A DNA stretch of 64,000 nt from positions 620,001-684,000 of the forward strand of contig NZ_JACTAG010000001.1 in assembly GCF_014763045.1 (NCBI RefSeq). Direction: 5' to 3'. The position numbers were made by a program, and so were the translations under genes. The notes beneath the pieces are model-generated. The model was given only the letters and a program-made list of their open reading frames with translations, did no database searches and was not told the DNA's origin. This DNA is from Sulfitobacter aestuariivivens. GTDB lineage: Bacteria > Pseudomonadota > Alphaproteobacteria > Rhodobacterales > Rhodobacteraceae. This document shows positions 4,678 through 46,261 of this stretch, one piece after another. How positions within the stretch are numbered: the stretch's first letter is position 1; every line of letters starts with the position of its first letter.

Positions 4678-4680
4678 GGT

Positions 4681-7290: not shown

Positions 7291-7310
7291 TCTGTAAATA
7301 TCTTCGCAAT
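7291..7310. promoter_or_regulatory. Candidate ScfR/PccR-type operator
   Basis: TCTGTAAA-TATC-TTCGCAAT lies in the 228-bp divergent region between the ABC operon and the regulator gene. As I recall it, the published site for PccR, an ScfR-family protein of Rhodobacter sphaeroides, is TTTGCAAA-N4-TTTGCAAA. The site here matches 12 of those 16 positions with the same spacing. A further half-site-like TTGTAAAG is at 7324-7331. Confidence 0.4.
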
Positions 7311-7389
7311 AGGTATCGAATTCTTGTAAAGAAAGTGATGTTGCGGTGCAGAAAGCCGTTGATTCAACACAAGTTTGCTGGTGGGGGCG

Positions 7390-21264: not shown

Positions 21265-21275
21265 GTGCTTTCTCC

Positions 21276-21503
21276 TTACTTGACGGCGTAGGGCAGCAGG
21301 GCGAGGAAACGGGCGCGTTTGATGGCACGGGCCAGCTCACGCTGTTTCTTCGCGGATACCGCGGTGATACGGGACGGAACGATCTTGCCACGCTCAGAGA
21401 TGTAGCGCTGCAGCAGACGGGTGTCTTTGTAATCGATCTTGGGTGCATTGTCGCCCGAGAAGGGGCAGACCTTGCGGCGGCGGAAAAATGGTTTAGCGGC
21501 CAT
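21276..21503 (-). CDS. rpsR: 30S ribosomal protein S18
   Basis: Standard 75-residue S18, which binds 16S rRNA with S6 on the platform. It carries the family core [12 protein letters not shown] near the N-terminus, [19 protein letters not shown] in the middle and [18 protein letters not shown] near the C-terminus. Middle gene of rpsF-rpsR-rplI, the usual order. It lies 29 bp after rpsF, with AAGGAC-type ribosome-binding sequence upstream. Confidence 0.97.
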
Positions 21504-30512: not shown

Positions 30513-31696
30513 TGTGGCGACATATTGCGTCTAACGCAGTGTCTTTCCTGCTGGTCGGCTTGTTTCTGGCCGGTGGGGTGATCCTGTGGGGCAAGGGGCA
30601 GTACACGGCCGAAGGCCCGTTGGCTGAGCCGATCTGCCTGCAGGTTGAACGGGGATCGAATATCCGAGATGTGTCGCAGGATCTGGAAGAGCAGGGCGCG
30701 GTGAGTTCTGCGGCGATTTTTCGGATCGGGGCGGATTACACGGACAAGGCGGGACAGTTGAAGGCAGGGAGCTTTCTGGTGCAGCCGGGCACATCGATGG
30801 AAGGCATCGTTGATGTCGTGACCAAGGGCGGTGCGAGCACGTGCGGGACGGAAGTTGTGTACCGGATTGGGGTCAACCGGATTTCGGTGCAAGTGCGCGA
30901 ACTTGATCCCGGCACGGGGCGGTTTGTCGAGCGGGCGCAGTTCACGCCTGCTGAAGACGAGGTTCCGGCGCTCTATGAAGATACCAAAGCCAAGGGCGAT
31001 ACGCGGTTTCGGATCGCTTTGGCGGAAGGCGTGACCAGTTGGCAAATTGTCGAAGGCCTTAAAGCGGTTGAGGTTCTGGACGGCGAGATTGCGGGTGTGC
31101 CTGCCGAAGGGACGCTTGCGCCGGACAGCTATGAGGTGCGGCCGGGCGACAGCCGCGAAGAATTGCTGGCCCAGATGGCTGATGCACAGGATGTGCTGGT
31201 TGCTGCGGCCTGGGAATCGCGTGATCCCGGCATTCCGATTGAGACACCAGAGGATCTGGTGATCCTTGCGTCCATCATCGAAAAGGAAACCGGGGTGGCA
31301 GAGGAACGCGGGCAGGTGGCCAGCGTGTTCGTGAACCGCCTTAATCAGGGCATGCGCCTGCAGACGGACCCAACGGTGATTTACGGGATCACGCAGGGCG
31401 AGGGTGTTTTGGGACGCGGGCTGCGGCGGTCTGAGTTGCGGCGCGAAACCCCTTGGAATACTTATGTTATTCCGGCCTTGCCCCCCACGCCCATTGCCAA
31501 CCCCGGGCGCGCCAGTCTGCTGGCGGCAGCGCAACCTGAAGAGACGGATTACATCTTTTTCGTAGCGGATGGGACGGGCGGACACGCCTTTGCAGAGACG
31601 CTGGATGCGCATAACCAGAACGTCGCACGTTGGCGTCAGATCGAGGCCGAGCGCGGCTCTGAAGCCGCTGGCAATGCCTCTACGGGTGGCAACTAA
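30512..31696 (+). CDS. mltG: Endolytic transglycosylase MltG
   Basis: Inner-membrane lytic transglycosylase that cuts nascent glycan strands and is thought to set their length. The 394-residue protein has one N-terminal membrane helix (AVSFLLVGLFLAGGVILW), a LysM-like region, and the YceG catalytic domain with ILASIIEKETGV (catalytic Glu near residue 255) and LQTDPTVIYGI. Coupled to fabF by a one-base overlap. The GTA cluster begins 189 bp after its stop codon, with a hairpin between. Confidence 0.94.
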   Translation: MWRHIASNAVSFLLVGLFLAGGVILWGKGQYTAEGPLAEPICLQVERGSNIRDVSQDLEEQGAVSSAAIFRIGADYTDKAGQLKAGSFLVQPGTSMEGIVDVVTKGGASTCGTEVVYRIGVNRISVQVRELDPGTGRFVERAQFTPAEDEVPALYEDTKAKGDTRFRIALAEGVTSWQIVEGLKAVEVLDGEIAGVPAEGTLAPDSYEVRPGDSREELLAQMADAQDVLVAAAWESRDPGIPIETPEDLVILASIIEKETGVAEERGQVASVFVNRLNQGMRLQTDPTVIYGITQGEGVLGRGLRRSELRRETPWNTYVIPALPPTPIANPGRASLLAAAQPEETDYIFFVADGTGGHAFAETLDAHNQNVARWRQIEAERGSEAAGNASTGGN

Positions 31697-31808
31697 CCCC
31701 GCATAGACGCCTTGTGTTGCGCGGCGCGTTTTCTGAGCGTGCTTTGGCGTGGGGATATGTTCAGGCATCCCCTGTAAATTCCAATGAATGCTAGAGGACA
31801 TGGGCGGC

Positions 31809-31838
31809 GGCCCCGGCGTTTTGCCGGTGGCCACCTTT
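31809..31838 (+). terminator. Hairpin between mltG and the GTA cluster
   Basis: CCGGC/GCCGG with a GTTTT loop, extended past one mismatch by GGCC/GGCC, then ACCTTTTCT. It may terminate mltG transcription; if GTA transcription starts upstream of it, it would sit in the GTA leader instead. Confidence 0.5.
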
Positions 31839-31885
31839 TCTGTCCGCTCGGTTGGGGGAACCAAGCGAGAGGTAAGACGGAGAAC

Positions 31886-32230
31886 ATGACATTTAAGGCC
31901 CCGGACGCGGACATCACGTACCAGCAGGACCTGGTCAGGTCCCTGGTGGATACAATCAAGGATTTGCGACACGATATCGAGGCCTTGAAGGACAAGGCCA
32001 AGACCGGGGGGGACATTGACAGCAAGGCAGTCGCGACATTGTTGGGCGAGCTCAACAAGGCCGTCATCGCCTGTGCAAATGCGGAGACCAGATTGAATGA
32101 AAGCAGGAGCAAGCAGGCAGGCATCGCCCATGGCGGATATGCCCTCGATATGGGGCGACTCCGGACTGAGATTGGGTGCAAGCTGGATCGGCTCAGGCGA
32201 TGCGGCGCGCCAGGAGAAGTTTCTGAATGA
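31886..32230 (+). CDS. GTA small terminase subunit (g1)
   Basis: First gene of the RcGTA-type cluster, 114 residues. The sequence ITYQQDLVRSLVDTIKDLRHDIEALKDKAK forms a coiled-coil-like helix (about residues 10-40). RcGTA g1 is a reduced small terminase that partners the large terminase with little sequence specificity, so random DNA is packaged. I chose ATG 31886. The 3' end overlaps the terminase start by about 100 bp in another frame. Confidence 0.82.
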   Translation: MTFKAPDADITYQQDLVRSLVDTIKDLRHDIEALKDKAKTGGDIDSKAVATLLGELNKAVIACANAETRLNESRSKQAGIAHGGYALDMGRLRTEIGCKLDRLRRCGAPGEVSE

Positions 32231-33509
32231 GCTGGATGAGGGAGAGCTGCTGGCTCTCCCTTATCTGTTCGAATTCTGGGCCATGCTGCATCAATTGCCC
32301 CCCGAGGGGAACTGGCGCGCGTGGGTCGTGATGGGCGGACGTGGTGCCGGCAAGACGCGGGCCGGTGCGGAATGGGTGCGCGCGCGCGTCGAAGGGGATC
32401 TGCCGCTGGATCCGGGTGCCTGCAAGCGGGTCGCGCTGGTCGGTGAAACCGTCGAGCAGGTGCGCGAGGTGATGATCTTTGGCGATAGCGGCATTCTGGC
32501 GTGTTCGCCGCCTGACAGGCGGCCCACATGGGAGGCGTCCAGAAAGCGACTGGTCTGGCCGAACGGGGCAATCGCGACCATTCACACGGCGCATGACCCC
32601 GAAAGCCTGCGCGGGCCACAGTTTGACGCGGCCTGGGTGGATGAGCTGGCCAAGTGGAAGAAGGGGCAGGAAACCTGGGATCAGTTGCAGTTTGCCCTGA
32701 GGCTTGGCGCGCAGCCGCAGGTCTGCGTGACCACGACACCGCGCAATGTGCCGGTGCTGCGCAAATTGCTTGCCTCGCCCTCGACCGTGACGACGCATGC
32801 GCCGACTGAGGCAAATGCCGCCAATCTTGCCAGCTCCTTTCTGCAAGAGGTGCGGGCGCGGTATCAGGGATCGCGGCTGGGACGGCAGGAATTGGATGGG
32901 GTGCTGTTGGCGGAAGCCGAAGGCGCGCTGTGGACGATGGCGGCACTTGAGGCGGCGCGGATCACGAAGCTGCCCGACTTTGACCGCATCGTTGTGGGGC
33001 TGGATCCGGCGACGACCAATGGGGCGGGGTCGGATGAATGCGGGATTGTCGTTGTGGGCGCGCAGACGCGCGGGCCAGTGCAGGACTGGCGCGCGGTGGT
33101 GCTGGCCGATTGCACGGTACAGGGTGCCACGCCCCACCAATGGGCCCGGGCCGCGATCCGTGCGATGGAACACTATGGCGGTGACCGGCTGATTGCCGAG
33201 GTCAATCAGGGCGGGCAGATGGTGGCCGAGGTCCTGCGCGGCGTGGACCCATTGGTGCCGATCAAATCCGTCCATGCCTCGCGCGGGAAAGTGGCGCGGG
33301 CCGAGCCTGTGGCCGCCCTTTATGAGCAGGGGCGGGTGCGGCACGTGGCGGGGCTTGATGCGCTGGAGGACCAGATGTGCCGGATGACGGCGCAAGGGTT
33401 CGAGGGCGGTGGCAGCCCGGACCGGGTTGATGCGCTGGTCTGGGCCCTGCACGAGCTGATCATTGAACCGTCGGTGAAGTGGCGCGCGCCTGCTGTGCGC
33501 GGGCTCTAA
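32130..33509 (+). CDS. GTA large terminase (g2)
   Basis: Packaging ATPase and nuclease that fills GTA heads with host DNA, about 459 residues. Walker A GGRGAGKTRAGAEW lies near residues 70-83 and Walker B DAAWVDELAKW near 167. The RNase H-like nuclease domain starts at VGLDPATTNG near residue 290 and has a late acidic residue in DRVDALVWAL. The start is uncertain: ATG at 32130, 32139 or 32097 all overlap g1. It is followed by a 154-bp gap before the portal gene. Confidence 0.93.
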   Translation: MADMPSIWGDSGLRLGASWIGSGDAARQEKFLNELDEGELLALPYLFEFWAMLHQLPPEGNWRAWVVMGGRGAGKTRAGAEWVRARVEGDLPLDPGACKRVALVGETVEQVREVMIFGDSGILACSPPDRRPTWEASRKRLVWPNGAIATIHTAHDPESLRGPQFDAAWVDELAKWKKGQETWDQLQFALRLGAQPQVCVTTTPRNVPVLRKLLASPSTVTTHAPTEANAANLASSFLQEVRARYQGSRLGRQELDGVLLAEAEGALWTMAALEAARITKLPDFDRIVVGLDPATTNGAGSDECGIVVVGAQTRGPVQDWRAVVLADCTVQGATPHQWARAAIRAMEHYGGDRLIAEVNQGGQMVAEVLRGVDPLVPIKSVHASRGKVARAEPVAALYEQGRVRHVAGLDALEDQMCRMTAQGFEGGGSPDRVDALVWALHELIIEPSVKWRAPAVRGL

Positions 33510-33663
33510 GGCGCTGTGGGGCCTTGCGCGTGGGTGTTGCGCCTGGGGCGCACGGTCTGGTGTCGCGACCTTAAGGCATAAATGAGAGATTGTTTTTGCG
33601 CCGGTTGGAGCGGGTCAGGGACGGCCTCTTGGACACCGGACGCAAGATTGAGGAGCGACACAC

Positions 33664-34836
33664 ATGGCATTTGATTTTCTGCGACGCGGGGGCCATCAGC
33701 CTGAGCAGAAGGCCTCGGCCACGGGGCCGGTGGTGGCCTATCAGACGTCTGGCCGTGTGGCCTGGAGCCCGCGCGATACCGTGAGCCTGACCAAGGTCGG
33801 CTTTTGCGGCAATCCGGTGGTGTTTCGCGCGGTCAAGCTGATTGCGGAGGCCGCGGCGGCGTTGCCGCTGGTGGCACAGGATGCCACAGCGCGCTATGAC
33901 ACGCATCCGCTGATGGCGCTGCTGAGCCGCCCGAATGGTGCCCAAGGACGGGCCGAGTTGCTGGAGGCGCTTTATGCGCAGCTGCTGCTGAGCGGGAACG
34001 GGTATGTCGAGGCTGTGGGCGGTGACGCGGGGCTGCCGGTTGAGTTGCACGTGCTGCGCTCTGACCGGATGTCGGTGGTGCCGGGGGCGGATGGCTGGCC
34101 GGTGGCGTTCGAATATGCGGTGGGCGGGCGCAAGCACCGGTTTGCCGCGACGGATGCCGCGCCGATCTGCCATATCAGAAATTTCCATCCGCAGGATGAT
34201 CATTACGGGTTCAGCCCGTTGCAGGCTGCTGCCATGGCGATGGACGTGCATAACAGCGCATCGCGGTGGTCCAAGGCGCTTTTGGACAATGCCGCGCGGC
34301 CATCGGGGGCGATTGTCTACAAAGGGTCCGAGGGGCAGGCCAAGCTGAGCGAGGATCAGTATGACCGATTGGTTTCCGAGATGGAGAGTCATCATCAGGG
34401 CGCGCGCAATGCCGGGCGACCGATGCTGCTGGAAGGCGGGCTGGACTGGAAGCCGATGGGTTTCTCGCCCTCGGACATGGAGTTCCAGAAGACCAAGGAA
34501 TCTGCCGCGCGCGAGGTTGCGCTGGCCTTTGGGGTGCCGCCGATGCTGATCGGGGTACAGGGGGACGCGACCTATGCCAACTATCAGGAGGCACATCGCG
34601 CATTTTACCGTCTGACGGTGCTGCCTCTGGCGACGCGGGTAACGGCGGCCCTTGCGCACTGGTTGTCGGCGTTTGATGCGGGTGCTGCGGTGGAGATCAA
34701 GCCGGATCTGGATCAGGTCACAGCCCTTGCGGCGGAACGCGATGGACAGTGGGCGCGTGTGGCGCGGGCCGATTTCCTGACGGATGCGGAGAAGCGCAGT
34801 TTGCTGGGGCTGCCACCGGTGGCTGCGGATGAGTGA
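33664..34836 (+). CDS. GTA portal protein (g3), HK97 family
   Basis: Forms the dodecameric portal through which DNA enters the GTA head. The 390-residue product has the HK97-portal features NPVVFRAVKLIAEAAAALPL near residue 55, HNSASRWSKALLDNAARPSG near 200 and GVPPMLIGVQGDATYANYQEA near 290. AGGAG lies upstream of the ATG. The 3' end overlaps g3.5 by 8 bp. Confidence 0.95.
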   Translation: MAFDFLRRGGHQPEQKASATGPVVAYQTSGRVAWSPRDTVSLTKVGFCGNPVVFRAVKLIAEAAAALPLVAQDATARYDTHPLMALLSRPNGAQGRAELLEALYAQLLLSGNGYVEAVGGDAGLPVELHVLRSDRMSVVPGADGWPVAFEYAVGGRKHRFAATDAAPICHIRNFHPQDDHYGFSPLQAAAMAMDVHNSASRWSKALLDNAARPSGAIVYKGSEGQAKLSEDQYDRLVSEMESHHQGARNAGRPMLLEGGLDWKPMGFSPSDMEFQKTKESAAREVALAFGVPPMLIGVQGDATYANYQEAHRAFYRLTVLPLATRVTAALAHWLSAFDAGAAVEIKPDLDQVTALAAERDGQWARVARADFLTDAEKRSLLGLPPVAADE

Positions 34837-35053
34837 TGTCGCGGCCTACGAGAAGTTTCTGTGTGCGCCAGGTCTGAAATTGCAGGCGCATGAGAGGATC
34901 AGCGCGATCCATCACGAGAACATGCTGCGCCGTCTGGAGCGGATCGAGCAGATGATGGAGCGGTTGGAAAAGCGTCTGTGGCTGAGCGTTTACGGCGTTG
35001 CCGCCATGATCCTGGCGCAGGCGATACAGAGTTTTCTGGTGGTGACACCCTAG
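34829..35053 (+). CDS. GTA head formation protein (g3.5, rcc01685 family)
   Basis: A 74-residue protein. A helical, charged middle section (ENMLRRLERIEQMMERLEKR) is followed by a C-terminal membrane-like helix (YGVAAMILAQAIQSFLVV). Position between portal and protease, and size, match g3.5 of RcGTA, a small protein needed for head formation. The ATG overlaps the portal stop region by 8 bp. Confidence 0.88.
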   Translation: MSDVAAYEKFLCAPGLKLQAHERISAIHHENMLRRLERIEQMMERLEKRLWLSVYGVAAMILAQAIQSFLVVTP

Positions 35054-35081
35054 CGCTGCAAAATTCAAAGGAGTTGTCGTG

Positions 35082-35702
35082 ATGAACAACATCAATGATC
35101 TCGGCCAAGCGTCGGGGACCAATAGAGATTTGTCTGATGCCACCACGGGTTTGGAGCGCAAGTTCGCCCGCTTTGGTGAGGCCATCGAGGTTGATGCCGA
35201 CACCACGGAAGGGATGCAGATCAGCGGCTATGCCAGCCTGTTCGGCGATGTGGATCAGGGTGGTGACGTGGTTCAGCGCGGGGCGTATGGCGCATCCTTG
35301 AAGGCCGTCGCGGATGCCGGGCGCAGCATCAAGATGCTGTGGCAGCATGACCCCGCCCAGCCCATCGGGATCTGGGATGAGGTGCGCGAGGACGACAAGG
35401 GTCTTTGGGTCAAGGGGCGCATTCTGTCTCAGGTCGAGAAAGGCCGCGAGGCGGCGGCATTGATCGGGGCGGGCGCCATTGATGGGCTGTCCATCGGCTA
35501 TCGCACCATCAAGGCCACGAAAAACGACAAGGGCCAGCGGCTGTTGTCAGAGCTGGAGCTTTGGGAGGTGTCGCTGGTGACCTTTCCGATGCTGCCCAGT
35601 GCGCGGGTGGGATCCAAGAGTGACGTTGTCGCGATTGGGGACGTGCTGCGCGAGATGGCGGCGGCCTTTGAGGGCGCGCGCGCTGAGATGGCGCGCGGAT
35701 GA
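35082..35702 (+). CDS. GTA prohead protease (g4), HK97 family
   Basis: Caudovirus S78-type maturation protease of 206 residues that trims the capsid N-terminal scaffold. Visible family features are ISGYASLFGDVDQGGDVV, the catalytic-His region MLWQHDPAQPIG and the catalytic-Ser region GLSIGYRT. GGAG precedes ATG 35082. Its substrate is the adjacent major capsid protein, whose first roughly 60-odd residues look like a cleavable helical segment. Confidence 0.93.
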   Translation: MNNINDLGQASGTNRDLSDATTGLERKFARFGEAIEVDADTTEGMQISGYASLFGDVDQGGDVVQRGAYGASLKAVADAGRSIKMLWQHDPAQPIGIWDEVREDDKGLWVKGRILSQVEKGREAAALIGAGAIDGLSIGYRTIKATKNDKGQRLLSELELWEVSLVTFPMLPSARVGSKSDVVAIGDVLREMAAAFEGARAEMARG

Positions 35703-35737
35703 ACCGCGGGCTGCATGAGACACATTGAGGACATGTG

Positions 35738-36904
35738 ATGAGCAAGAGTGAAGATCGGGGTGCGACCTCCCCGGCAGAGGAAGTCCGCGCGGCGGTGACG
35801 GGATTTGTCACTGACTTCAAGGGCTTTCAGGCAGAAATTGAGACCAAACTTCAACAAACGGAAGAGCGAATGACCATGCTGGATCGCAAGATGACGACGC
35901 CTGTGCGCACCCCCCTTGGCGGTGCCATGGATACCGTGGCCCCCCACCAAAAGGCGTTCAATGCCTATCTGCGCAACGGGGATGACGATGCCCTGCGCGG
36001 GCTTGAGCTGGAGGGCAAATCGCTGTCTACGGCGGTGAATTCCGATGGCGGATACCTGGTGGATCCGCAGACCTCTGCGCAGGTGCAATCGGTGCTGAAG
36101 GCAGCGCCCTCGATCCGGTCCATCGCGTCCGTGGTCACGGTTGAGGCGACGTCATATGACGTGCTGGTGGACCATACCGACGTCGGCGCGGGCTGGGCGA
36201 CCGAGACAGATGCGACGGCTGAGACCGATACGCCGCAGATTGATCGCATCACCATTGCGCTGAATGAATTGTCGGCCTTGCCCAAGGCGTCGCAGCGTTT
36301 GCTGGATGACAGCGCGTTTGACATCGAAGGCTGGCTGGCGGGCCGGATCGCCGACAAGTTCGCGCGGGCCGAGGCGACCGCGTTTATCAATGGCGATGGT
36401 GTGGACAAGCCCAAGGGCTTTTTGAACCACGCATCGGTGGATAATGACGTCTGGGCCTGGGGTAATCTGGGCTATGTGCCCAGCACCCAGGACGGGGATG
36501 TTGCCGCTGAAGCGGTGATTGATCTGGTCTATGCGCTGGCCGCGCAGTACCGCGCCAATGCGACGTTTGTGATGAACTCCAAGACTGTGGCGCTGGTGCG
36601 CAAGCTCAAGGACGGCGATGGCCGGTTCCTGTGGTCAGATGGTCTACATGCGGGCGAGCCTGCGCAGCTGTTGGGTTATCCGGTGGTTGTGGCCGAGGAT
36701 ATGCCTGATCCGGCGTCTGATTCCATGTCGATCGCTTTTGGTGACTTCAACGCCGGCTACACGATTGCCGAGCGCCCCGATCTGCGCATCCTGCGTGATC
36801 CCTTCAGCGCCAAACCGCATGTGCTGTTTTACGCCACCAAACGTGTGGGCGGTGACGTGAGCGATTTTGCGGCGATCAAACTGATGAAATTCGGCGCGGC
36901 GTAA
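35738..36904 (+). CDS. GTA major capsid protein (g5), HK97 fold
   Basis: A 388-residue capsid protein. A charged helical N-terminus, rich in Glu/Lys and with coiled-coil character (about residues 1-60), is the delta domain removed by g4. The mature part starts around AFNAYLRNGDDDALRGLE, with GGYLVDPQTSAQVQSVLK and the C-terminal RVGGDVSDFAAIKLMKF typical of HK97-type capsids. A strong GC hairpin follows the stop codon (36922-36947). Confidence 0.96.
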   Translation: MSKSEDRGATSPAEEVRAAVTGFVTDFKGFQAEIETKLQQTEERMTMLDRKMTTPVRTPLGGAMDTVAPHQKAFNAYLRNGDDDALRGLELEGKSLSTAVNSDGGYLVDPQTSAQVQSVLKAAPSIRSIASVVTVEATSYDVLVDHTDVGAGWATETDATAETDTPQIDRITIALNELSALPKASQRLLDDSAFDIEGWLAGRIADKFARAEATAFINGDGVDKPKGFLNHASVDNDVWAWGNLGYVPSTQDGDVAAEAVIDLVYALAAQYRANATFVMNSKTVALVRKLKDGDGRFLWSDGLHAGEPAQLLGYPVVVAEDMPDPASDSMSIAFGDFNAGYTIAERPDLRILRDPFSAKPHVLFYATKRVGGDVSDFAAIKLMKFGAA

Positions 36905-36921
36905 ATCCGCCCCGTCGATAG

Positions 36922-36947
36922 CCGGGGCCGGGGCAACTTGGCCCCGG
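36922..36947 (+). promoter_or_regulatory. Hairpin after the GTA capsid gene
   Basis: Perfect 8-bp stem CCGGGGCC/GGCCCCGG with a 10-base loop, 18 bp after the g5 stop, in the longest non-coding gap within the cluster (171 bp). There is no T-run. It may protect the abundant capsid mRNA or partially attenuate downstream expression. Confidence 0.6.
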
Positions 36948-37075
36948 TCCGGGCGCGTGACCAACCATAGGTCTGAACTGTCTAGCTGCTCCCCTCCGAC
37001 CGGGCGGTACAGGCTGGCGCGCGTCCGGGTCTTATGACCCACCCTTGGGAGGGCCTAGAATTTTGGAGACGTCTC

Positions 37076-37675
37076 ATGATGTTGATCGAAGAAACCTCTG
37101 TTCCGGACGCGGCGTTGCCTGTGGATGCGTTCAAGGCGCATTTGCGGTTGGGCAGTGGCTTTGGTCAGGAGGACGTGCAGGACGCCGTTGTGCGGTCTTT
37201 TCTGCGCGCGGCCATCGCTGCCATCGAGGCGCGCACGGGCAAGGTATTGATTGCGCGGGCCTTTAGCTGGACGCTGACCTATTGGCGCGACCGTGCGGCC
37301 CAGCGGTTGCCGGTGGCGCCGGTGTCGGGCATCACCCGCGTCGCGATTGTGGCCGGTGACGGCAGCCAGACGGATGTGGCGGCGGATGCGTATTGGCTGG
37401 AAGCGGATGCGCAGCGCCCTGCGCTGCGGGCCTCCGGGGCGGTGTTGCCTGCGATCCCCAAGGCGGGTTCCGTGACCGTTGAGTTTGACGCCGGTTTCGG
37501 GGCCGATTGGGCCGACCTGCCTGCGGATTTGCAACAAGCGGTGCTGATGCTGGCCGCGCATTACTATGAATACCGCAACGACACCGGCCTCAGTGATGGC
37601 TGCATGCCTTTTGGCGTGAGCAGCCTGATCGAGCGGTTCAAGGGCGTGCGTATCGGTTTTGGGGCGGGCACATGA
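37076..37675 (+). CDS. GTA head-tail adaptor (g6)
   Basis: A 199-residue gp6-like connector protein binding the portal. Helical start (LPVDAFKAHLRLG), then the conserved central pattern with IEARTGKVLIARAFSWTL and the C-terminal ADLPADLQQAVLMLAAHYYEYR. GGAG lies seven bases before ATG 37076. The stop overlaps the next start (ATGA). Confidence 0.9.
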   Translation: MMLIEETSVPDAALPVDAFKAHLRLGSGFGQEDVQDAVVRSFLRAAIAAIEARTGKVLIARAFSWTLTYWRDRAAQRLPVAPVSGITRVAIVAGDGSQTDVAADAYWLEADAQRPALRASGAVLPAIPKAGSVTVEFDAGFGADWADLPADLQQAVLMLAAHYYEYRNDTGLSDGCMPFGVSSLIERFKGVRIGFGAGT

Positions 37676-38010
37676 ACGCGCCCAATCTCAACCGGGCCTT
37701 GATCCTGGAGGCGCCTGTACATGCAAGTGACGGGGCCGGGGGATATGCCCGCGACTGGATCGCGCTGGGGACGCTGTGGGGTGAGATCACCGTGCGCAGT
37801 GGCCGCGAGATCGGGCGCAGTGGTGCGGCGGTCAGCCGTGTCACCTGCAAGATCGTGGTGCGCGGTGCCCCATGGGGCACGCCAGAGCGCCCGATGCCGC
37901 AGCAGCGGTTCCGTGATGGCACCCGGATTTTCACCATCGAAGCGGTCACCGAGCGGGACCCGCAGGCCAAATATCTGACCTGCTTTGCAAAAGAAGAGGT
38001 GGCGGTATGA
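37672..38010 (+). CDS. GTA head closure/stopper protein (g7)
   Basis: A 112-residue protein of the phage head-closure (head-tail joining) family. LILEAPVHASDGAGGYARDWIALGTLWGEI in substance, then RDGTRIFTIEAVTERDPQAKYL at the C-terminus, are typical. It seals the portal after packaging and carries the tail. ATGA overlaps with g6 upstream and g8 downstream show tight coupling. Confidence 0.9.
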   Translation: MNAPNLNRALILEAPVHASDGAGGYARDWIALGTLWGEITVRSGREIGRSGAAVSRVTCKIVVRGAPWGTPERPMPQQRFRDGTRIFTIEAVTERDPQAKYLTCFAKEEVAV

Positions 38011-38423
38011 CATTTGCGCTTTCGGGACCCTTGCAGGCCGCCGTTTACGCGGCGCTGTCGGCGGATGCCGCTTTGGCGGCGCTTGTGGGTGGGGACGTCT
38101 TTGACGCGGTGCCTTCGGGCACGGTGCCTGCCCGTTATGTTCTGCTGGGCAGTGAAACGGTCACGGATGCTTCTGATCTGAGTGCATCGGGGGCGATGCA
38201 TCGTTTCACCGTTTCCGTGATCACCAGCGATCCAGGTTTTTCCGGTGCAAAGGCGATTGCCGGCCAGGTGAGCGATGTGCTGCACGATGCCGATCTGTCC
38301 CTGACGCGCGGATCGCTGGTCGCGCTGCGTTTTGAGCGGGCGACGGCGAAACGGACCAACGGCGGGGCCACACGACAGATCGATCTGCGGTTTCGCGCGC
38401 GTGTCGATGACACTGCCGCCTAA
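38007..38423 (+). CDS. GTA tail terminator (g8), DUF3168 family
   Basis: A 138-residue DUF3168 protein with the characteristic start GPLQAAVYAALSADAALAAL and middle PARYVLLGSETVTDASD. It caps the tail tube at the head-proximal end and sets the joint. AGAGG precedes the ATG. It overlaps g7 by four bases and is followed by a 34-bp gap. Confidence 0.9.
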   Translation: MTFALSGPLQAAVYAALSADAALAALVGGDVFDAVPSGTVPARYVLLGSETVTDASDLSASGAMHRFTVSVITSDPGFSGAKAIAGQVSDVLHDADLSLTRGSLVALRFERATAKRTNGGATRQIDLRFRARVDDTAA

Positions 38424-38457
38424 CGCGGATCAACGGATTTAACTCAGGAGACGACAG

Positions 38458-38880
38458 ATGGCTGTTCAAGCAGGCAAGGACCTTTTGGTCAAAGTGGATA
38501 TGACAAGCGATGGCCAGTTCGAGACCATTGCAGGGCTGCGCGCCACGCGCGTGAGCTTCAATGCGGAGACGGTCGACGTGACCTCGCTGGATAGCGAAGG
38601 CGGCTGGCGCGAGTTGCTGGTGGGGGCCGGTGTGCGGTCAGCAGCAATCAGCGGGTCGGGTGTGTTTCGCGATGAAGGTACAGATGAGCGTGCGCGCCAG
38701 TTGTTTTTTGACGGTGAGACGCCGGACTTTCAGATCGTCATTCCCGATTTTGGGGTGGTCGAGGGGCCATTTCAGGTCACCGGGCTGGAATACGGCGGAT
38801 CGCTGAATGGTGAAGCCACCTATGAGCTGAGCCTGATGTCAGCCGGCAGCCTTGATTTCACCCCGGCGGCAGTGGCTTAG
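38458..38880 (+). CDS. GTA major tail protein (g9), TP901-1 family
   Basis: A 140-residue tail-tube subunit. The N-terminus AVQAGKDLLVKVDM and the central TVDVTSLDSEGGWRELL are typical of the TP901-1/RcGTA tail protein. GGAG lies at good spacing before ATG 38458. Stacked hexamers of this protein form the tube around the g11 tape measure. Confidence 0.94.
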   Translation: MAVQAGKDLLVKVDMTSDGQFETIAGLRATRVSFNAETVDVTSLDSEGGWRELLVGAGVRSAAISGSGVFRDEGTDERARQLFFDGETPDFQIVIPDFGVVEGPFQVTGLEYGGSLNGEATYELSLMSAGSLDFTPAAVA

Positions 38881-38881
38881 G

Positions 38882-39196
38882 ATGGCCAATCCGTGGAGGG
38901 GAGATGTGGCCGTTGTCATCGACGGAGAGCGCCTTGCCGCGCGCCTGACGTTGGGCGCGTTGGCCGAGCTGGAGGAGGATCTGGGCGAGTCGTCATTGCT
39001 GGCCCTGGTCGAACGGTTCGAAAGCAACCGGTTCTCTACCCGCGATGTACTGGCGCTGTTGAACGCGGGATTGCGGGGCGGCGGGCATGTGATTGATCCC
39101 GAACGCCTGCAAAGCGGTGATTTCGAAGGTGGGCCCATGGCGGCGGCAAAGGCGGCTGCAGAGTTGCTGGCCCGCGCCTTTGTGGTGCCGTCGTGA
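38882..39196 (+). CDS. GTA g10, tail assembly chaperone-type protein
   Basis: A 104-residue member of the GTA-gp10 family. LGALAELEEDLGESSLLALVERF and the C-terminal AAKAAAELLARAF are visible. It starts one base after the tail-protein stop. Its GTGA overlap with g10.1 recalls the paired tail-assembly chaperones of siphophages, which handle the tape measure; here two separate frames are used and no slippery sequence is obvious. Confidence 0.9.
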   Translation: MANPWRGDVAVVIDGERLAARLTLGALAELEEDLGESSLLALVERFESNRFSTRDVLALLNAGLRGGGHVIDPERLQSGDFEGGPMAAAKAAAELLARAFVVPS

Positions 39197-39405
39197 GCCA
39201 CGGTGGCGGTTTGGATTGGCCCGCACTGATGCGGGCGGGTTTGCAGGGGCTGAAGTTGGCGCCGGACCAGTTCTGGGCGCTGTCACCGGCAGAGCTTCAG
39301 CTGATGCTGGGTGCGGGCAGCGGTCGCGCACCGCTGCTCAGGGACGGGTTGGAGGCGTTGATGAACGCCTATCCAGATGCGGGAAAGGACACGACAGATG
39401 AGTGA
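39193..39405 (+). CDS. GTA g10.1 (rcc01693 family)
   Basis: A 70-residue protein starting at a GTG that overlaps the g10 stop (GTGA). LKLAPDQFWALSPAELQLMLG is the conserved core. Probably the second tail-assembly chaperone. The 3' end overlaps g11 by 8 bp. A small gene that is easily missed, but its place and sequence match the RcGTA set. Confidence 0.85.
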   Translation: MSHGGGLDWPALMRAGLQGLKLAPDQFWALSPAELQLMLGAGSGRAPLLRDGLEALMNAYPDAGKDTTDE

Positions 39406-40057
39406 TTTTGCGGATGACGGCGGTCTTGAGAGCCATGCTGAGGGCCTGAATGCCACGCTGGCACAGACCAGCGTTTTGGTGTCGGGGTTCGACAGCGAAT
39501 TGCGGCGCATGAAAACGTCGCTTGCGGCAACCAACAAGGATGTGGCGACGCTTGAAAAAGGGTTGAGCCGTGGGTTGCGCAAGGCATTTGACGGTGTGGT
39601 TTTCGATGGGCTGAAACTGTCGGATGCGATGCGGACAGTGGCGCAGTCGCTGGTCAATACGACCTACAACGCCGCGATGCGCCCTGTCACGGATCACTTT
39701 GGTGGTCTGATCAGCCAGGGGGTGGGCAACATCGTACAAGGTATTTTGCCCTTCGCGAACGGCGCGCCGTTCAGCCAAGGCAAAGTCACCCCCTTTGCGC
39801 AAGGCGGGGTTGTCAGCAGTGCCACGACCTTTCCCATGCGCGGTGGTACCGGCGTCATGGGTGAGGCCGGGCCAGAGGCGATCATGCCGCTGGCGCGGGG
39901 TCCGGATGGCAAGTTGGGCGTACGTGGCGAGATGCAGCGCGCGCCCACCGTCGTGATGAATATCAGCACGCCGGATGTGCGCGGGTTCCAGCGCTCTCAG
40001 AGCCAGATCGCCGCTCAGATGAGCCGCGCGCTCTCCTCCGGCAACCGCAATCGATAA
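39398..40057 (+). CDS. GTA tape measure protein (g11)
   Basis: A 219-residue tape measure, very short compared with phage tape measures, in line with the short tail of GTA particles. The N-terminal half is helical (ATNKDVATLEKGLSRGLRKA). The C-terminal half has the Gly-rich phage pattern FAQGGVVSSATTFPMRGGTG and GEAGPEAIMPLARGPDGKLG. ATG 39398 lies inside the end of g10.1. Confidence 0.9.
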   Translation: MSDFADDGGLESHAEGLNATLAQTSVLVSGFDSELRRMKTSLAATNKDVATLEKGLSRGLRKAFDGVVFDGLKLSDAMRTVAQSLVNTTYNAAMRPVTDHFGGLISQGVGNIVQGILPFANGAPFSQGKVTPFAQGGVVSSATTFPMRGGTGVMGEAGPEAIMPLARGPDGKLGVRGEMQRAPTVVMNISTPDVRGFQRSQSQIAAQMSRALSSGNRNR

Positions 40058-40070
40058 GGCAGGAACAGAC

Positions 40071-40706
40071 ATGACCGCATTTCACGAGATCAGATTCCCC
40101 ACGACACTTAGCTTTGGGTCCATTGGCGGGCCACAGAGGCGAACGGACGTGGTCACGCTGGCCAATGGATTTGAAGAGCGCAACACGCCCTGGGCGCATT
40201 CGCGGCGCGTCTATGATGCGGGGCTGGGGATGCGGTCGATTGATGATTTGCAGCAACTGATCGGGTTCTTCGAGGCGCGGATGGGGCAGATGTATGCGTT
40301 TCGCTGGAAAGATTGGTCGGATTACAAATCTGGTCTGGCGTCGGCCGAGGTGGCATTTGAGGACCAGAGCATCGCGATTGGTGATGGCGTGACGGACGCT
40401 TTTCAGATCGTCAAAAATTATCGGTCCGGGGATCAGACGTATCAGCGGCCGATTATGAAACCCGTGGCCGGGACAGTGCGCGTCGGCGTTGAGCAGACTG
40501 AGTACCGAGAGGGGATTGAGTACGAGGTGGATGTGACCCGTGGCATCGTCACCTTTGCGGAACCGCCTGATGAGGGTTTGGAGATCAAGGCCGGGTTTGA
40601 GTTTGATGTGCCGGTGCGCTTCGATACGGACCGGATCCTGACATCTGTCGCGAGTTTTCAGGCCGGTCAGGTACCCGATGTGCCCGTGATCGAGGTGCGC
40701 ATTTGA
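40071..40706 (+). CDS. GTA distal tail protein (g12), DUF2460
   Basis: A 211-residue distal tail (Dit-like) protein forming the ring at the tail tip. Family hallmarks are FHEIRFPTTLSFGSIGGPQR at the start and MYAFRWKDWSDYKS in the middle. AGGA precedes ATG 40071, and the stop overlaps the start of g13 by one base (TGATG). Confidence 0.93.
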   Translation: MTAFHEIRFPTTLSFGSIGGPQRRTDVVTLANGFEERNTPWAHSRRVYDAGLGMRSIDDLQQLIGFFEARMGQMYAFRWKDWSDYKSGLASAEVAFEDQSIAIGDGVTDAFQIVKNYRSGDQTYQRPIMKPVAGTVRVGVEQTEYREGIEYEVDVTRGIVTFAEPPDEGLEIKAGFEFDVPVRFDTDRILTSVASFQAGQVPDVPVIEVRI

Positions 40707-41593
40707 TGGCCGGGTTCAATGCAGCGCTTGAGGCGCATCTGGCCACGGGTCACACGACGCTGGCGCATGCCTGGCAGATCAACCGCACAGACGGGGTACG
40801 CTTTGCCTTTACCGATCATGATGTTGATCTGACGTTCGAGGGCGTGACGTTTGCGGCTGACAGCGGCCTTGGCGCCAAGGCGCTGGCGCAGACCACCGGG
40901 CTTTCGGTCGACAACACCGAGGCGCTGGGCGCGCTGAGCGATGCGTCGCTGCGCGAGGACGAGATTGAGCAGGGGCGCTTTGACGGGGCCGAGGTGATTG
41001 CCTGGCTGGTGAACTGGGCCGATGTGGATCAGCGCTGGATGCAGTTCCGTGGCTCTATCGGAGAAATGTCGCGCAGTGGGGGTGCCTTCAAGGCCGAGCT
41101 ACGAGGGCTGACAGAGGCGTTGAACCAGCCGCAGGGCCGCGCCTATCAAAAACCCTGCACAGCTGTTCTGGGGGATGGTCAGTGCCGGTTTGATCTGGGC
41201 ACAGCAGGCTATGCCAGCACGCAAAGTGTCGAGGTCCAGACCGACGGTCGGACTTTCGTGTGGGATGATTTGCCGGGGTTCGAGGCCGGGTGGTTCACCA
41301 GAGGCCGGCTTGAGGTGCTTGACGGGGCTGCCGCGGGCCTTTGGTCGATGATCAAGCATGACCGGTTGGACGGAAGTCAGCGCACTGTCGAGCTTTGGGA
41401 GCCCATTCGCGGAGCGGTTCCATTGGGCACCTCTGTTCGGCTGGTGGCAGGATGCGACAAGCGGCTGGAGACCTGTCGGTTGAAGTTCAACAATATTCTG
41501 AACTTTCAGGGTTTCCCGGATTTGCCGGGGGAAGACTGGGTCGTTGCGGTGCCCCGTTCGACCGGGACGAATTCGGGCGGGTCGCTGCGATGA
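40706..41593 (+). CDS. GTA hub protein (g13), DUF2163
   Basis: A 295-residue DUF2163 protein with GVRFAFTDHDVDLTFEGVTF near residue 27 and the Cys-containing C-terminal CDKRLETCRLKFNNILNFQG. In RcGTA it forms part of the baseplate hub and carries an iron-sulfur-type cysteine cluster. Cysteines in YQKPCTAVLGDGQC and the C-terminal motif fit that. Coupled at both ends by overlaps. Confidence 0.93.
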   Translation: MAGFNAALEAHLATGHTTLAHAWQINRTDGVRFAFTDHDVDLTFEGVTFAADSGLGAKALAQTTGLSVDNTEALGALSDASLREDEIEQGRFDGAEVIAWLVNWADVDQRWMQFRGSIGEMSRSGGAFKAELRGLTEALNQPQGRAYQKPCTAVLGDGQCRFDLGTAGYASTQSVEVQTDGRTFVWDDLPGFEAGWFTRGRLEVLDGAAAGLWSMIKHDRLDGSQRTVELWEPIRGAVPLGTSVRLVAGCDKRLETCRLKFNNILNFQGFPDLPGEDWVVAVPRSTGTNSGGSLR

Positions 41594-42036
41594 GCGGGCA
41601 AGGTGGGCGTATTGTCAGCGCCGCACGGGGCTGGATTGGGACGCCGTATGTGCATCAGGCGGCTGCAAAGGGCGCGGGGTGTGATTGCCTTGGTTTGGTG
41701 CGCGGTCTTTGGCGAGACCTGAAGGGGCAAGAGCCTGAAGTGGTGCCTGCCTACACGGTGGATTGGTCAGAACCGCAGGGCGACGAGCGGCTGTGGGCGG
41801 CTGCAGCGCGGCATCTGAAGGCCAAGACGGTACAGGATGAGGCCCCAGGTGATGTGATCCTGATTCGGATGCGGCAGGGTGGTGTGGCCAAGCATCTGGG
41901 CGTGCAAGCTCGGGTGGGGCCCACGGCCAGTTTCATACATGCCTACGTGCGTCACGGCGTGGTTGAGAGCCCGCTGAGCGCCCCCTGGCGGCGACGGATC
42001 GTCGCCAGATTTGAATTTCCCGAGGAGACTTCCTGA
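41590..42036 (+). CDS. GTA cell-wall peptidase (g14), NlpC/P60 type
   Basis: A 148-residue peptidoglycan peptidase carried in the tail tip, thought to open the recipient wall. The catalytic Cys33 lies in GAGCDCLGLVRGLWRDL and the His is probably H102 in AKHLGVQ. ATG 41590 overlaps the g13 stop (ATGA) and the stop overlaps g15 by one base. Confidence 0.92.
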   Translation: MSGQGGRIVSAARGWIGTPYVHQAAAKGAGCDCLGLVRGLWRDLKGQEPEVVPAYTVDWSEPQGDERLWAAAARHLKAKTVQDEAPGDVILIRMRQGGVAKHLGVQARVGPTASFIHAYVRHGVVESPLSAPWRRRIVARFEFPEETS

Positions 42037-45000
42037 TGGCTACAGTACTTCTATCTGCAGCGGGTGCCGCTGTTGGCGGCACTGTCGGGGGCACGCTGGC
42101 GGGCCTGTCGTCGGTCGCCATTGGACGCGCGGTTGGGGCCACGCTGGGGCGTATGGTCGATCAACGTTTGCTGGGGCAGGGCGGACAGGCGGTCGAGACC
42201 GGCAAGGTCGATCGGTTTCGGCTGACCCGTGCCGGCGAAGGCGAAGCGATCGCGCAGCTGTATGGCCGGATGCGGCTGGGTGGTCAGGTGATCTGGGCGT
42301 CTGACTTTCAGGAAAGCGTGACGGTCTCGGGCGGCGGAAAGGGCAGTAGGCCAACGCCTGAGACGACCGAGTACAGCTATGCTGTGTCGCTTGCGATTGC
42401 GTTGTGTGAGGGTGAGATTACCTCGGTTGGGCGGATCTGGGCGGACGGGGAAGAGATCGCGCCCAATGATCTGAACCTCAGGGTCTATAATGGCACCCCG
42501 TTCCAGCAGCCCGACCCGACGATGGAAGCCATTGAGGGCGTGGGCCAGGTGCCTGCCTATCGCGGCACCGCCTATGTGGTGATGGAAAACCTGTCGCTTG
42601 AGCGTTTTGGCAACCGAGTGCCGCAGTTTTCCTTCGAAGTGATGCGGCCTGAGCAGCCGCAGGTCGCTGGACGCGAGGCCATGCCGGCATTTGGGATTGA
42701 AGGCGTCGCGCTGATCCCCGGTACGGGTGAATACAGCCTTGCTACCACGCCAGTTACTTACGTCGAACCCGGTCAGGACGCGCGGTGGAGTGCCAATGTC
42801 AACACGCCCACCGGGCAATCCGATTTCACGGTCTCACTGGAGGCGATGAACGAGGAAATGCAGAACCTCAAGGCCGCCTCGCTGGTGGTGTCGTGGTTTG
42901 GTGATGATCTGCGATGTGGCGAATGCACGGTACGCCCCAAGGTCGAGGACGCGGTGATCGAGGGCGAGAACATGCCCTGGCAGGTCGCGGGGATTGCGCG
43001 CGGGCAGGCCGAAGTGATTGTCAGGCAGGATGAGCGGCCCATCTATGGGGGTACGCCGACGGATCAATCGGTGATCGAGGCCATTGAGGCCATGCATGCT
43101 GCTGGCACGGCGGTGATGTTCTATCCCTTCATCCTGATGGACCAGCTTGAGGGCAATGACCTTGCGGATCCTTACAGCGATGCGGACACACAGCCGCATT
43201 TGCCATGGCGCGGGCGCATGACGCTGTCTGAGGCACCGGGCCGTCCGGGCAGCCCGGATGGCACGGCGGCAGCCGACGCCGAAGTTGATGCCTTTTTTGG
43301 CACGGTCGTGGCGACGGATTTCGCTGTGGGTGCGGGTGAGGTGGCCTATACCGGCCCGCAGGAATGGAGCCTGTCGCGGTTCATTCTGCATTACGCGGCC
43401 CTGTGTGCTGCGGCGGGGGGGGTCGACAGCTTTTGCATCAGCTCAGAAATGCGCGGTCTGACCCAGATCAGGGGTGCCGGGGGCGGCTTTGTTGCGGTGG
43501 CGCGGCTTCGCGGGCTTGCCGCCCAGGTGCGCGCACTGGTCGGGCCGGGAACGAAAATCAGCTATGCCGCTGATTGGTCGGAGTATTTTGGCTATCAGCC
43601 GCAGGACGGCAGCGGCGATCGCTATTTCCATCTTGATCCGCTTTGGGCGGATGAGAATGTCGATTTCATCGGGATCGACAACTATATGCCTTTGTCGGAT
43701 TGGCGTGAGGAAGACGGCCACATTGATGGCGAAAGCCATGATGCGATCTATGATCTTGCGTACCTCAAGTCCAATATCGAAGGCGGAGAGGGCTATGACT
43801 GGTATTACCATTCTGTCGACGCGCGGGCGGCGCAGATCCGCACCGAGATTACCGATGGCGCGCATGACGAGCCGTGGATCTACCGCTACAAGGACATTCG
43901 CAACTGGTGGGCAAATGCGCATCATGAGCGGATCAACGGTGTGCGACAGGCTGCGCCAACGGATTGGGTGCCTGAGTCCAAGCCGATCTGGTTCACGGAA
44001 TACGGCTGTGCGGCGATCGATAAGGGGACCAATCAGCCGAACAAGTTTCTGGATGTAAAGAGCTCTGAAAGTGCGCTGCCGCGGTATTCGACAGGTGCGC
44101 GGGATGATCTGATGCAGATGCAGTATCTGCGCGCGATGGCAGAATACTGGAATGATCCGGCCAACAACCCGGTGTCACCTGAATACGGGGGTCGTATGCT
44201 GGATATGGCGCGGGCCTTTGTCTGGGCCTGGGATGTGCGACCCTTTCCGGCGTTTCCGAACAACCACGATCTTTGGAATGATGGTGCGAACTATGGGCGC
44301 GGGCATTGGGTTAACGGGCGCACATCGGCGCGGCCCTTGGCGTCAGTCGTGGGCGAGATTTGCCGGCGGGCCGGATTGGAGGCATTCAGCACGGAAGGTC
44401 TTTATGGCTATGTGCGCGGCTATGCTGTGGAGCAGGTCACGGATGCGCGCGCGGCACTGCAGCCGCTGATGATCCGGTATGGGTTCGACGCGATTGAGCG
44501 GGATGGCGTGTTGCAGTTTCGGATGCGGGACGGGCAGGAGGAGACGGTTCTGGATCCTGAAACATTCGCAATCAGTGGTGATCTGGATGGGGTCACCGAG
44601 CAGGTACGTGAGGCCGACGCGGAAATCTCTGGCCGGGTGCGGCTGCGGTTTGTGCAGGCCGATGGCAATTTTGACACCATTGCTGAAGAAGCGGTGTTGG
44701 CCGATGAGGCGACCCATGCGGTGTCGGCCTCGGAACTGAACATGGCGCTGACGCGCGCCGAAGGGCGACAGGTGGTGGAACGCTGGCTGACAGAGGCGCG
44801 GGTGTCGCGTGAACGTATCCGGCTGGCCCTGCCGCCATCGCGGCTGGCGTTGGGCGCGGGCGATGTGATCGAGGTACCGGGCGAGGGCAATGAGGGCCCG
44901 GGCCGATATCGCATTGACCGGGTTGAGCAGACCGAGCTGCAACTGATCGAGGCCGTGCGGATCGAGCCGGAAGTCTTTGAACCGGCTGATATTGAGGAAG

Positions 45001-45968
45001 ATCTGGCCAGCCTGCGCCCCTTTGTGCCCCCGGTGCCGGTGGTGCCATTCTTTCTGGATCTGCCTCTGCTTCGGGGGGATGAGGTGCCGCATGCGCCCTA
45101 TATCGCTGCAACAGCGGCGCCATGGCCGGGAGCGGTGGCGGTGTATCAATCCAGTACCGACGAGAATTATGCGCTGAATACGATCCTGCCCCGGCCATCC
45201 ATCGTAGGGCGCACGCAGAATGCGATGACTGCAGCCAGCGCTGGCGTCTGGGATCGGGGCGCAGCGCTGGAGGTCAAGATCATCAGCGGAGCCCTGTCGT
45301 CAGTAACCGAAGAGGCATTATTGAGCGGTGCCAATCTGGCAGCGATCGGAGACGGGGCGTCAGATATCTGGGAAGTGTTTCAGTTTGCCGAGGCGGAGCT
45401 TGTGGCACCGGGGACGTATTGGCTGCGCACGCGGCTGCGGGGACAGGCCGGAACAGATGGGGTCATGCCGGCGGCCTGGCCTGCCGGATCGGTTTTCGTA
45501 TTGTTGGACGGCACACCGTCGCAAATCACCCAAAGCCCGAACTTGCGCCGTGTTGCACAGAATTACCGTATCGGACCGGCCCGACGGGGATATGATGACC
45601 CCTCTTACCGGCACCTGACACGCGCATTTGATGGCATCGGGTTGCGGCCTTATAGCCCCTGCCAGGTTCAGGCGAATCCGCTGCCGAATGGCTCGGTTGA
45701 TCTGCAGTGGGTCAGGCGGACGCGCCGTGACGGCGATGCCTGGGACGGGCTCGACGTGCCGCTTGGAGAGGAAAGCGAGCACTATCTGGTGCGGGTGATG
45801 GTGGGCAGCGAAATCCTGCGCGAGACCAGTGTGAATGCCCCTCACTGGCGCTATGAGGCGAGCGCGCGCGCAGCGGATGGCACACCGGAGACGGTGACCT
45901 TTGCGGTGGCGCAGGTATCGGCCAGTTTTGGCGCTGGGCCTTTTGCGACCCTAGGGTACCACTTCTGA
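42036..45968 (+). CDS. GTA megatron/host-specificity protein (g15), TIM-barrel
   Basis: The 1310-residue central fibre-hub protein. A Gly/Ala-rich N-terminal segment (residues about 8-45) precedes tail-hub domains. A glycoside-hydrolase-like TIM barrel (GTA_TIM) lies around residues 430-750, with SFCISSEMRGLTQIRGAGGG and DNYMPLSDWREEDG visible. A phage-tail_3-like region follows at about 795-960. The C-terminal part binds the cell surface. It is the largest gene of the cluster and intact. Its stop codon overlaps the start of a further small gene. Confidence 0.94.
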   Translation: MATVLLSAAGAAVGGTVGGTLAGLSSVAIGRAVGATLGRMVDQRLLGQGGQAVETGKVDRFRLTRAGEGEAIAQLYGRMRLGGQVIWASDFQESVTVSGGGKGSRPTPETTEYSYAVSLAIALCEGEITSVGRIWADGEEIAPNDLNLRVYNGTPFQQPDPTMEAIEGVGQVPAYRGTAYVVMENLSLERFGNRVPQFSFEVMRPEQPQVAGREAMPAFGIEGVALIPGTGEYSLATTPVTYVEPGQDARWSANVNTPTGQSDFTVSLEAMNEEMQNLKAASLVVSWFGDDLRCGECTVRPKVEDAVIEGENMPWQVAGIARGQAEVIVRQDERPIYGGTPTDQSVIEAIEAMHAAGTAVMFYPFILMDQLEGNDLADPYSDADTQPHLPWRGRMTLSEAPGRPGSPDGTAAADAEVDAFFGTVVATDFAVGAGEVAYTGPQEWSLSRFILHYAALCAAAGGVDSFCISSEMRGLTQIRGAGGGFVAVARLRGLAAQVRALVGPGTKISYAADWSEYFGYQPQDGSGDRYFHLDPLWADENVDFIGIDNYMPLSDWREEDGHIDGESHDAIYDLAYLKSNIEGGEGYDWYYHSVDARAAQIRTEITDGAHDEPWIYRYKDIRNWWANAHHERINGVRQAAPTDWVPESKPIWFTEYGCAAIDKGTNQPNKFLDVKSSESALPRYSTGARDDLMQMQYLRAMAEYWNDPANNPVSPEYGGRMLDMARAFVWAWDVRPFPAFPNNHDLWNDGANYGRGHWVNGRTSARPLASVVGEICRRAGLEAFSTEGLYGYVRGYAVEQVTDARAALQPLMIRYGFDAIERDGVLQFRMRDGQEETVLDPETFAISGDLDGVTEQVREADAEISGRVRLRFVQADGNFDTIAEEAVLADEATHAVSASELNMALTRAEGRQVVERWLTEARVSRERIRLALPPSRLALGAGDVIEVPGEGNEGPGRYRIDRVEQTELQLIEAVRIEPEVFEPADIEEDLASLRPFVPPVPVVPFFLDLPLLRGDEVPHAPYIAATAAPWPGAVAVYQSSTDENYALNTILPRPSIVGRTQNAMTAASAGVWDRGAALEVKIISGALSSVTEEALLSGANLAAIGDGASDIWEVFQFAEAELVAPGTYWLRTRLRGQAGTDGVMPAAWPAGSVFVLLDGTPSQITQSPNLRRVAQNYRIGPARRGYDDPSYRHLTRAFDGIGLRPYSPCQVQANPLPNGSVDLQWVRRTRRDGDAWDGLDVPLGEESEHYLVRVMVGSEILRETSVNAPHWRYEASARAADGTPETVTFAVAQVSASFGAGPFATLGYHF

Positions 45969-46261
45969 TGCGGTCAGTGCGACACAGCGATGTCGTCACA
46001 GCCGCCCGTGCCCTGCTGGCGGTGCCTGCAGCGCGCCGCGGGGCCCTGTGCGGGCGGATCTTGCGGGAAGCGGATTGGGCAGACAGATTTACCCGGCGAT
46101 TGGGCAAGCCGCATCCGTTGTGGGGCAATGGGACCCTTTTGGCTGCAGCGCGGCAGTACATGCTGGCGCCGGAGCCCACCTTTGATGACTGGGCTTATTG
46201 CAGCGCCTTCGAAATGGTTCTGACCCAGCTGATGGCACATCGTCGGTGTCAGGCCTTGTAA
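45968..46261 (+). CDS. Small basic protein coupled to GTA g15
   Basis: A 97-residue soluble protein rich in Arg and Ala (VVTAARALLAVPAARRGALCG) with a middle GKPHPLWGNGTLLAAARQY. It is not a GTA structural protein I recognise. Its ATG overlaps the g15 stop by one base (TGATG), the same coupling used inside the GTA cluster, so it is probably co-transcribed with it. Intact and protein-like; function unknown. Confidence 0.75.
   Translation: MRSVRHSDVVTAARALLAVPAARRGALCGRILREADWADRFTRRLGKPHPLWGNGTLLAAARQYMLAPEPTFDDWAYCSAFEMVLTQLMAHRRCQAL

Follow-up and report, generated by a model that had tools for sequence, protein, structure and literature searches.

A probably working RcGTA-type gene transfer agent cluster in Sulfitobacter aestuariivivens and a recurring g2-g15 junction in records of its relatives

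The window analysed here, bases 620001-684000 of contig 1 of Sulfitobacter aestuariivivens (64,000 bases of a 4.19 Mb genome that is 99.99% complete), carries at positions 31886-45968, together with the gene g16, what we identify from sequence as the main structural cluster of a gene transfer agent (GTA) of the Rhodobacter capsulatus type (RcGTA), one belonging to a Sulfitobacter-like species of Rhodobacteraceae and very probably working. We assign it to this type because of its gene set and order, its retained catalytic residues, near end-to-end matches of g15 and g5 to their RcGTA counterparts, the presence in the genome of gafA, an endolysin-holin pair and genes for a fibre and a tailspike-like protein, and the ratios of nonsynonymous to synonymous change (dN/dS) in its genes. 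Records of relatives contain a shared junction between g2 and g15 at the corresponding locus, which is treated below.

The gene set and its order are those of RcGTA (rcc01682-rcc01699), including the neighbours yceG and cysE and the position of g16 after g15, as given in the accessible text of PMC9552610. A sequence-only reading of the window had placed the cluster between 31886 and 45968, which are exactly the start of g1 and the end of g15, and had listed g1, g2, g3, g3.5, g4-g10, g10.1 and g11-g15 in order; family scans, position and relatives bear out this series, while the list left out g16. The scans (Pfam, NCBIfam) name every gene from g1 to g15 except g1 and g3.5, neither of which matched a family. 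Comparisons drew on 80 named loci, the best 80 of 558 on named contigs picked by capsid similarity, on 295 genomes of the family and on 62 of the genus; within those best 80, the closest capsid relatives were from Sulfitobacter and other roseobacters. The genes of the cluster are as follows.

31886..32230, + strand: g1, small terminase, 114 amino acids, assigned by position and relatives; in 72 of the 80 named loci, median identity 40%
32130..33509, + strand: g2, large terminase (PF03237, PF17289)
33664..34836, + strand: g3, portal (PF04860, 306.7 bits)
34829..35053, + strand: g3.5, assigned by position and relatives; full in 72 of the 80 named loci, partial in 3, not found in 5
35082..35702, + strand: g4, prohead protease (PF04586)
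35738..36904, + strand: g5, major capsid protein (PF05065; RcGTA capsid Rcc01687, 562.6 bits)
37034..37675, + strand: g6, adaptor or head-tail connector (PF05135; TIGR02215, 198.1 bits)
37672..38010, + strand: g7, stopper (PF05521)
38007..38423, + strand: g8, tail terminator (PF11367)
38458..38880, + strand: g9, tail tube (PF06199)
38882..39196, + strand: g10, GTA-gp10 (PF11836)
39193..39405, + strand: g10.1, tail assembly chaperone (PF09550)
39398..40057, + strand: g11, short tape measure, 219 amino acids (NF058675 RcGTA_tape, 352.5 bits, cut-off 220)
40071..40706, + strand: g12, distal tail protein (PF09343)
40706..41593, + strand: g13, hub (PF09931, PF09356)
41590..42036, + strand: g14, NlpC/P60-type cell wall peptidase (TIGR02219, 165.9 bits, cut-off 81.9)
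42036..45968, + strand: g15, megatron (PF13547 (GTA_TIM), PF13550, PF23666; RcGTA structure 6tba chain 8A)
45968..46261, + strand: g16 (DUF7742), last cluster gene (PF24891), starting within the g15 stop codon

A longer reading of g1, starting at 31784, is possible, and the Pfam match of g14 fell slightly below its cut-off (22.3 versus 23 bits). Residues 1-1304 of g15 match chain 8A of 6tba at 1660.3 bits. The place of g16 agrees with that of rcc01699/g16, a match by position and not letter by letter; according to the accessible text of PMC9552610, that gene is co-transcribed with the R. capsulatus cluster.

The cluster is intact and under selection. Each gene from g1 to g15 translates as a single open frame with no frameshift seen, and the genes are co-directional with many overlapping by a few bases, as the sequence-only reading had described. 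It had also held that the catalytic residues of terminase, prohead protease and g14 are retained, and the residues that we take to be the catalytic ones are identical in all of the 113-118 alignment rows compared: Walker A and the Walker-B Asp-Glu of g2 (113/113), its nuclease Asp 292 (114/114) and Asp 434 (115/115), His 89 and Ser 137 of g4 (118/118), and Cys 33 and His 102 of g14 (116/116). Pairing the genes with those of 17 species of the genus gave median dN/dS values between 0.06 (g9) and 0.35 (g1) for g1-g15; g16, with 8 species in the comparison and 5 of them unsaturated, had 0.28, mltG 0.10 and cysE 0.06. The values are rough, since synonymous sites are near saturation in these Nei-Gojobori estimates. 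These ratios show purifying selection on the cluster genes.

As in RcGTA, partner genes lie at scattered loci. The sequence-only reading had named gafA and an endolysin-holin pair as genes to look for elsewhere, and had held that their absence from the genome would refute its view that the organism may well make transducing particles; both are present. The gafA candidate encodes a DUF6456 protein with an open frame (185.3 bits, far above the cut-off) and a weak helix-turn-helix match below the cut-off, with a DUF6477 gene lying divergently beside it. A GH108 endolysin gene overlaps the gene of a GTA_holin_3TM holin. The fibre candidate, a DUF2793 protein of 344 amino acids at a distant locus whose N-terminal third matches chain S of structure 8gtc, and the tailspike-like candidate, 783 amino acids with a pectate-lyase-type domain and located ~1.8 kb downstream of lysS and separated from it by one or more small genes, were assigned by domain and location, not by comparison with the RcGTA proteins themselves. 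In the accessible portion of PMC13420450, tspA adjoins lysS in Rhodobacterales. At L086, the endolysin-holin pair (3473-4650) lies between ccmE and ccmF, genes of cytochrome c maturation as read from their translations.

Two results could weigh against a working RcGTA-type system. First, the tailspike-like gene had no structure match beyond a weak one to a different enzyme. Second, ghsB, which RcGTA has, was not found here: a protein of phage RcapMu that matches Rcc01080 (GhsB) at E 1.3e-165 served as query and found nothing in the genome at E up to 1, in a search run without a positive control, where an empty result says little. Two RcapNL proteins (7217-7678, 20845-21279), tried as a route to ghsA, matched no solved structure.

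Gene transfer agents are domesticated phage particles that shuttle random stretches of host DNA from cell to cell. If the system behaves as RcGTA does, GafA would switch the cluster on in a small fraction of cells of a stressed population, g1 and g2 would package random host DNA by the headful mechanism, ~4 kb to each small head, and endolysin and holin would then lyse the cell, releasing small tailed particles that deliver DNA to neighbours. Homology with RcGTA is what suggests that particles are produced at all. RcGTA-type systems also need CckA-ChpT-CtrA control and competence-type uptake genes. Packaging of ~4 kb is given in the available text of PMC8601537, and the 14-kb cluster exceeds the capacity for being packaged whole. 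A GTA has been reported in the genus, in Sulfitobacter strain CB2047, according to the part of PMC4223456 that was accessible.

A recently silenced GTA, with its genes intact but switched off and decay yet to begin, would be indistinguishable by sequence from a working one, and decay does occur in the genus. The genome G055 has a reduced cluster with a frameshift in its g15 remnant and a stop codon inside the gafA frame (L141), and is a GTA system in decay; G323 (L166) has an otherwise full cluster with stops in the g1, g13 and g15 alignments, through decay or poor sequence. Here, however, every cluster gene and gafA are open and the cluster genes evolve under strong selection, and we consider silencing improbable.

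The structural genes are of siphophage type, as expected also of an ordinary or defective tailed prophage. The borders of the cluster are instead housekeeping genes.

30512..31696, + strand: mltG/yceG, host gene at the left border (PF02618, YceG), present in 74 of the 80 named loci
31697..31885, + strand: leader and likely promoter region, a block partly conserved in an alignment of at most 19 related loci
46365..47183, + strand: cysE, serine acetyltransferase, at the right border (PF06426)

The leader and promoter role of 31697..31885 is likely by analogy with RcGTA. To the left lie genes for an acyltransferase, a reductase, an acyl carrier protein, a ketoacyl synthase and YceG, and to the right cysE and pyruvate dehydrogenase. 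The same site is occupied in most related loci, and the cluster itself holds no lysis genes. No integrase, replication or lysogeny gene was found beside the cluster among the 19 different window proteins scanned outside it, and the PHROGs matches obtained for 4 of 10 window proteins scanned included none named integrase or replication. The portal family PF04860, the only one searched, was matched once in the genome, in this cluster. The nearest capsids are those of GTAs, not phages: the 599 phage records that matched the capsid all stood below 60% identity, the top among eight matches listed reaching 47.2% over 82% of the query. Structure 8gtc, presumably that of phage R4C, is related to megatron residues 478-1303 (760.7 bits, versus 1660.3 for RcGTA) and to the N terminus of the DUF2793 fibre. 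R4C differs in being a phage, described as a marine siphophage in the accessible text of PMC10276861. The sequence-only reading had concluded that this is no ordinary prophage, and with both the selection on its genes and the housekeeping surroundings pointing the same way, a prophage is extremely improbable.

An intact GTA cluster is ordinary for the family and a known kind of element. GTA_TIM, the TIM domain of the megatron, was matched in 259/295 family genomes and 57/62 genus genomes, and the gafA family in 269/295 family genomes, counts that overstate the number of intact GTAs because some genomes have several GTA_TIM matches and others have remnants. All 80 named loci had full copies of g3 and g5, 75 a full g2 (2 partial, 3 not found) and 77 a full g15 (1 partial, 2 not found). 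With the window g16 as query, g16 was detected in 35/80, a count that mixes divergence, loss and locus ends. Single loci also showed damage: L051 has breaks in g2, g5, g11 and g15 from decay or poor sequence, L036 and L014 have one break each, and stops occur in further alignments. In the genus member G343, which has no GTA_TIM match, g2 on contig 25 (43588-44960) is split into two pieces that overlap, the pattern a frameshift would leave; G318 has no g2 match in its genome.

The recurring junction came from a survey of the family genomes with a weak GTA_TIM match (16) or none (36). The surroundings of mltG were read in 18 of these 52 (12/16 and 6/36, respectively), with the S. aestuariivivens genome as control. 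The remaining genomes with a weak match were read as well. Ten of the 18 showed mltG, g2 up to codon ~171, g15 from codon ~655 and cysE, with g16 in 7 of the 10; five (G036, G045, G076, G141, G176) retained remnants whose end points differed from this structure and from one another; two (G071, G123) had nothing at the mltG site, and G070 had its fused locus elsewhere. In the genus set, 4/62 genomes (G055, G315, G328, G351) matched GTA_TIM profile positions 204-299 only. Altogether, 16 genome records from 13 genera carry an in-frame fusion of g2 codons 1-171 with g15 from codon 655 on, 13 from the family set and 3 further genus members, with four species of the genus in total. They are G055, G043, G092, G104, G140, G217, G244, G241, G137, G144, G351, G328, G315, G070, G079 and G139, with the loci, in the same order, L123, L124, L126-L133, L162-L164 and L182-L184. 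The intact equivalent in the window of what these records lack is

32643..43997, + strand: segment missing in the fused records, 11,355 bases as calculated from codon numbers

The identical codon is joined in 16/16 records, the Walker-B Asp of the terminase being followed by a Glu codon and then by the subsequent g15 residues. The residue after this Glu varies as it does in g15, and is Tyr in 4/4 fused genus members, in 16/17 intact genus genomes and in the window. The joined frame is open in 14/16, being cut by the contig end in G139 and frameshifted in G055, and the remaining part of g2 was not found elsewhere in any of the 16 genomes. In two further genomes, G032 (L186 position 1) and G158 (L185 last base), a contig stops precisely on base 1 of this g15 Glu codon, and neither genome gave a g2 match. 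In L128 (G140), a DUF2793-like fibre gene, recognised by translation, lies directly after g15 (4032-4742) and not at a distant locus.

Several origins of the junction were considered. Deletion between direct repeats was rejected: in 40 intact loci the longest identical stretches shared by g2 and g15 were 11-16 bases, and none of the matches listed (at most 4 per locus) lay at the junction, where the sequences share only the GAR codon and TGG six bases before it. A DNA-specific recombinase would need to tolerate codons that differ widely at either site. Wholesale transfer of a fused allele from a foreign source, in its simple form, was not supported: in the two windows beside the junction, nearly every row had a best intact match that equalled or exceeded its best fused one, in a comparison that tilts to intact since the 118 intact rows outnumber the 17 other fused rows; G140, G144 and G217 favoured the fused match there, by at most 0.02.

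Quick trees gave 12 state changes for the C-terminal part of g15 (70 rows), 13 for mltG (60 rows) and 11 for cysE (46 rows); with fused rows set against intact genus rows, well-supported branches force 3, 4 and 1, respectively. The cysE tree, taken alone, is compatible with a single origin since it forces one change only. Many branches are weak, and many fused genomes are scattered among intact ones, with good support in g15 for G328, G315 and G043. Some fused genomes cluster, notably G079, G158 and G217, and common descent of the fused state is possible in these three. Across 11 triplets, which cover 6/16 fused genomes, the fused branch carried a larger share of amino-acid changes in 6 and a smaller one in 5, the excess being clear for G070 and for one of the two triplets of G043. 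This tells against an old functional fusion gene, the lack of a consistent change fitting a recent or record-level event better, though not decisively. Flank spacing showed no clear difference between fused and intact loci. A gafA match was kept in 15/15 fused or cut family genomes and absent in 10/20 listed genomes without a GTA_TIM match (of 36), a hand-calculated one-sided Fisher test giving ~0.001. Taken together, the tree scatter, the lack of a clear likeness between fused alleles near the junction, the triplets, the flank spacing and the retention of gafA suggest that the loss is recent in most of these genomes, or lies in the record.

Independent collections offered little sight of the junction. 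A degenerate junction pattern gave 4 matches in viral_contigs, none in a GTA gene. A fused-protein query found the join in 0/80 loci (best 80 of 108), a weak negative since these loci were called viral and collapsed ones are hardly expected there; g15 ran continuously through the site in 65 of them, L241 had two overlapping g15 pieces, and g2 ran on in 14. A literature search that covered few subscription papers returned no report of a g2-g15 junction in the text accessible, and PMC6856285, as far as its available part goes, describes a different partial cluster. The 8 intact genomes common to both collections were identical over ~16.5 kb each, which speaks for generally sound records. A counterpart of at least 99% among the 80 named loci was found for 8/37 intact genomes fetched and for 0/18 fused or cut ones.

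On this evidence we lean slightly towards a record-level artefact. Against a pure artefact stands G055, whose stop in gafA and frameshift in g15 are as expected of a truly dead GTA. A genuine recent deletion, recurrent or spreading, is conceivable but doubtful, and some other origin is unlikely. Under a still bolder proposal, the GTA locus repeatedly collapses to one null allele that particles spread, in a one-way ratchet that would end GTA production lineage by lineage. The collapsed locus spans ~3 kb from g1 to g16 in G055 and would fit one head, as the 14-kb cluster does not, so particles could pass on the null allele but could not bring back the intact cluster; subsequent recombination with local intact alleles as far as the junction would mask the flanks of the donor. 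We regard this ratchet as an unlikely account.

The cluster in S. aestuariivivens adds one more intact GTA locus with scattered partner genes, in a family where most members have one, and makes this species a reasonable choice for a transfer assay. The recurring junction deserves attention more than the cluster itself. If it is an artefact, it is a warning for counts of GTA presence made from such genome sets; if it is real, the same GTA loss recurring across many genera would open the upkeep and loss of a lethal shared trait to direct testing.

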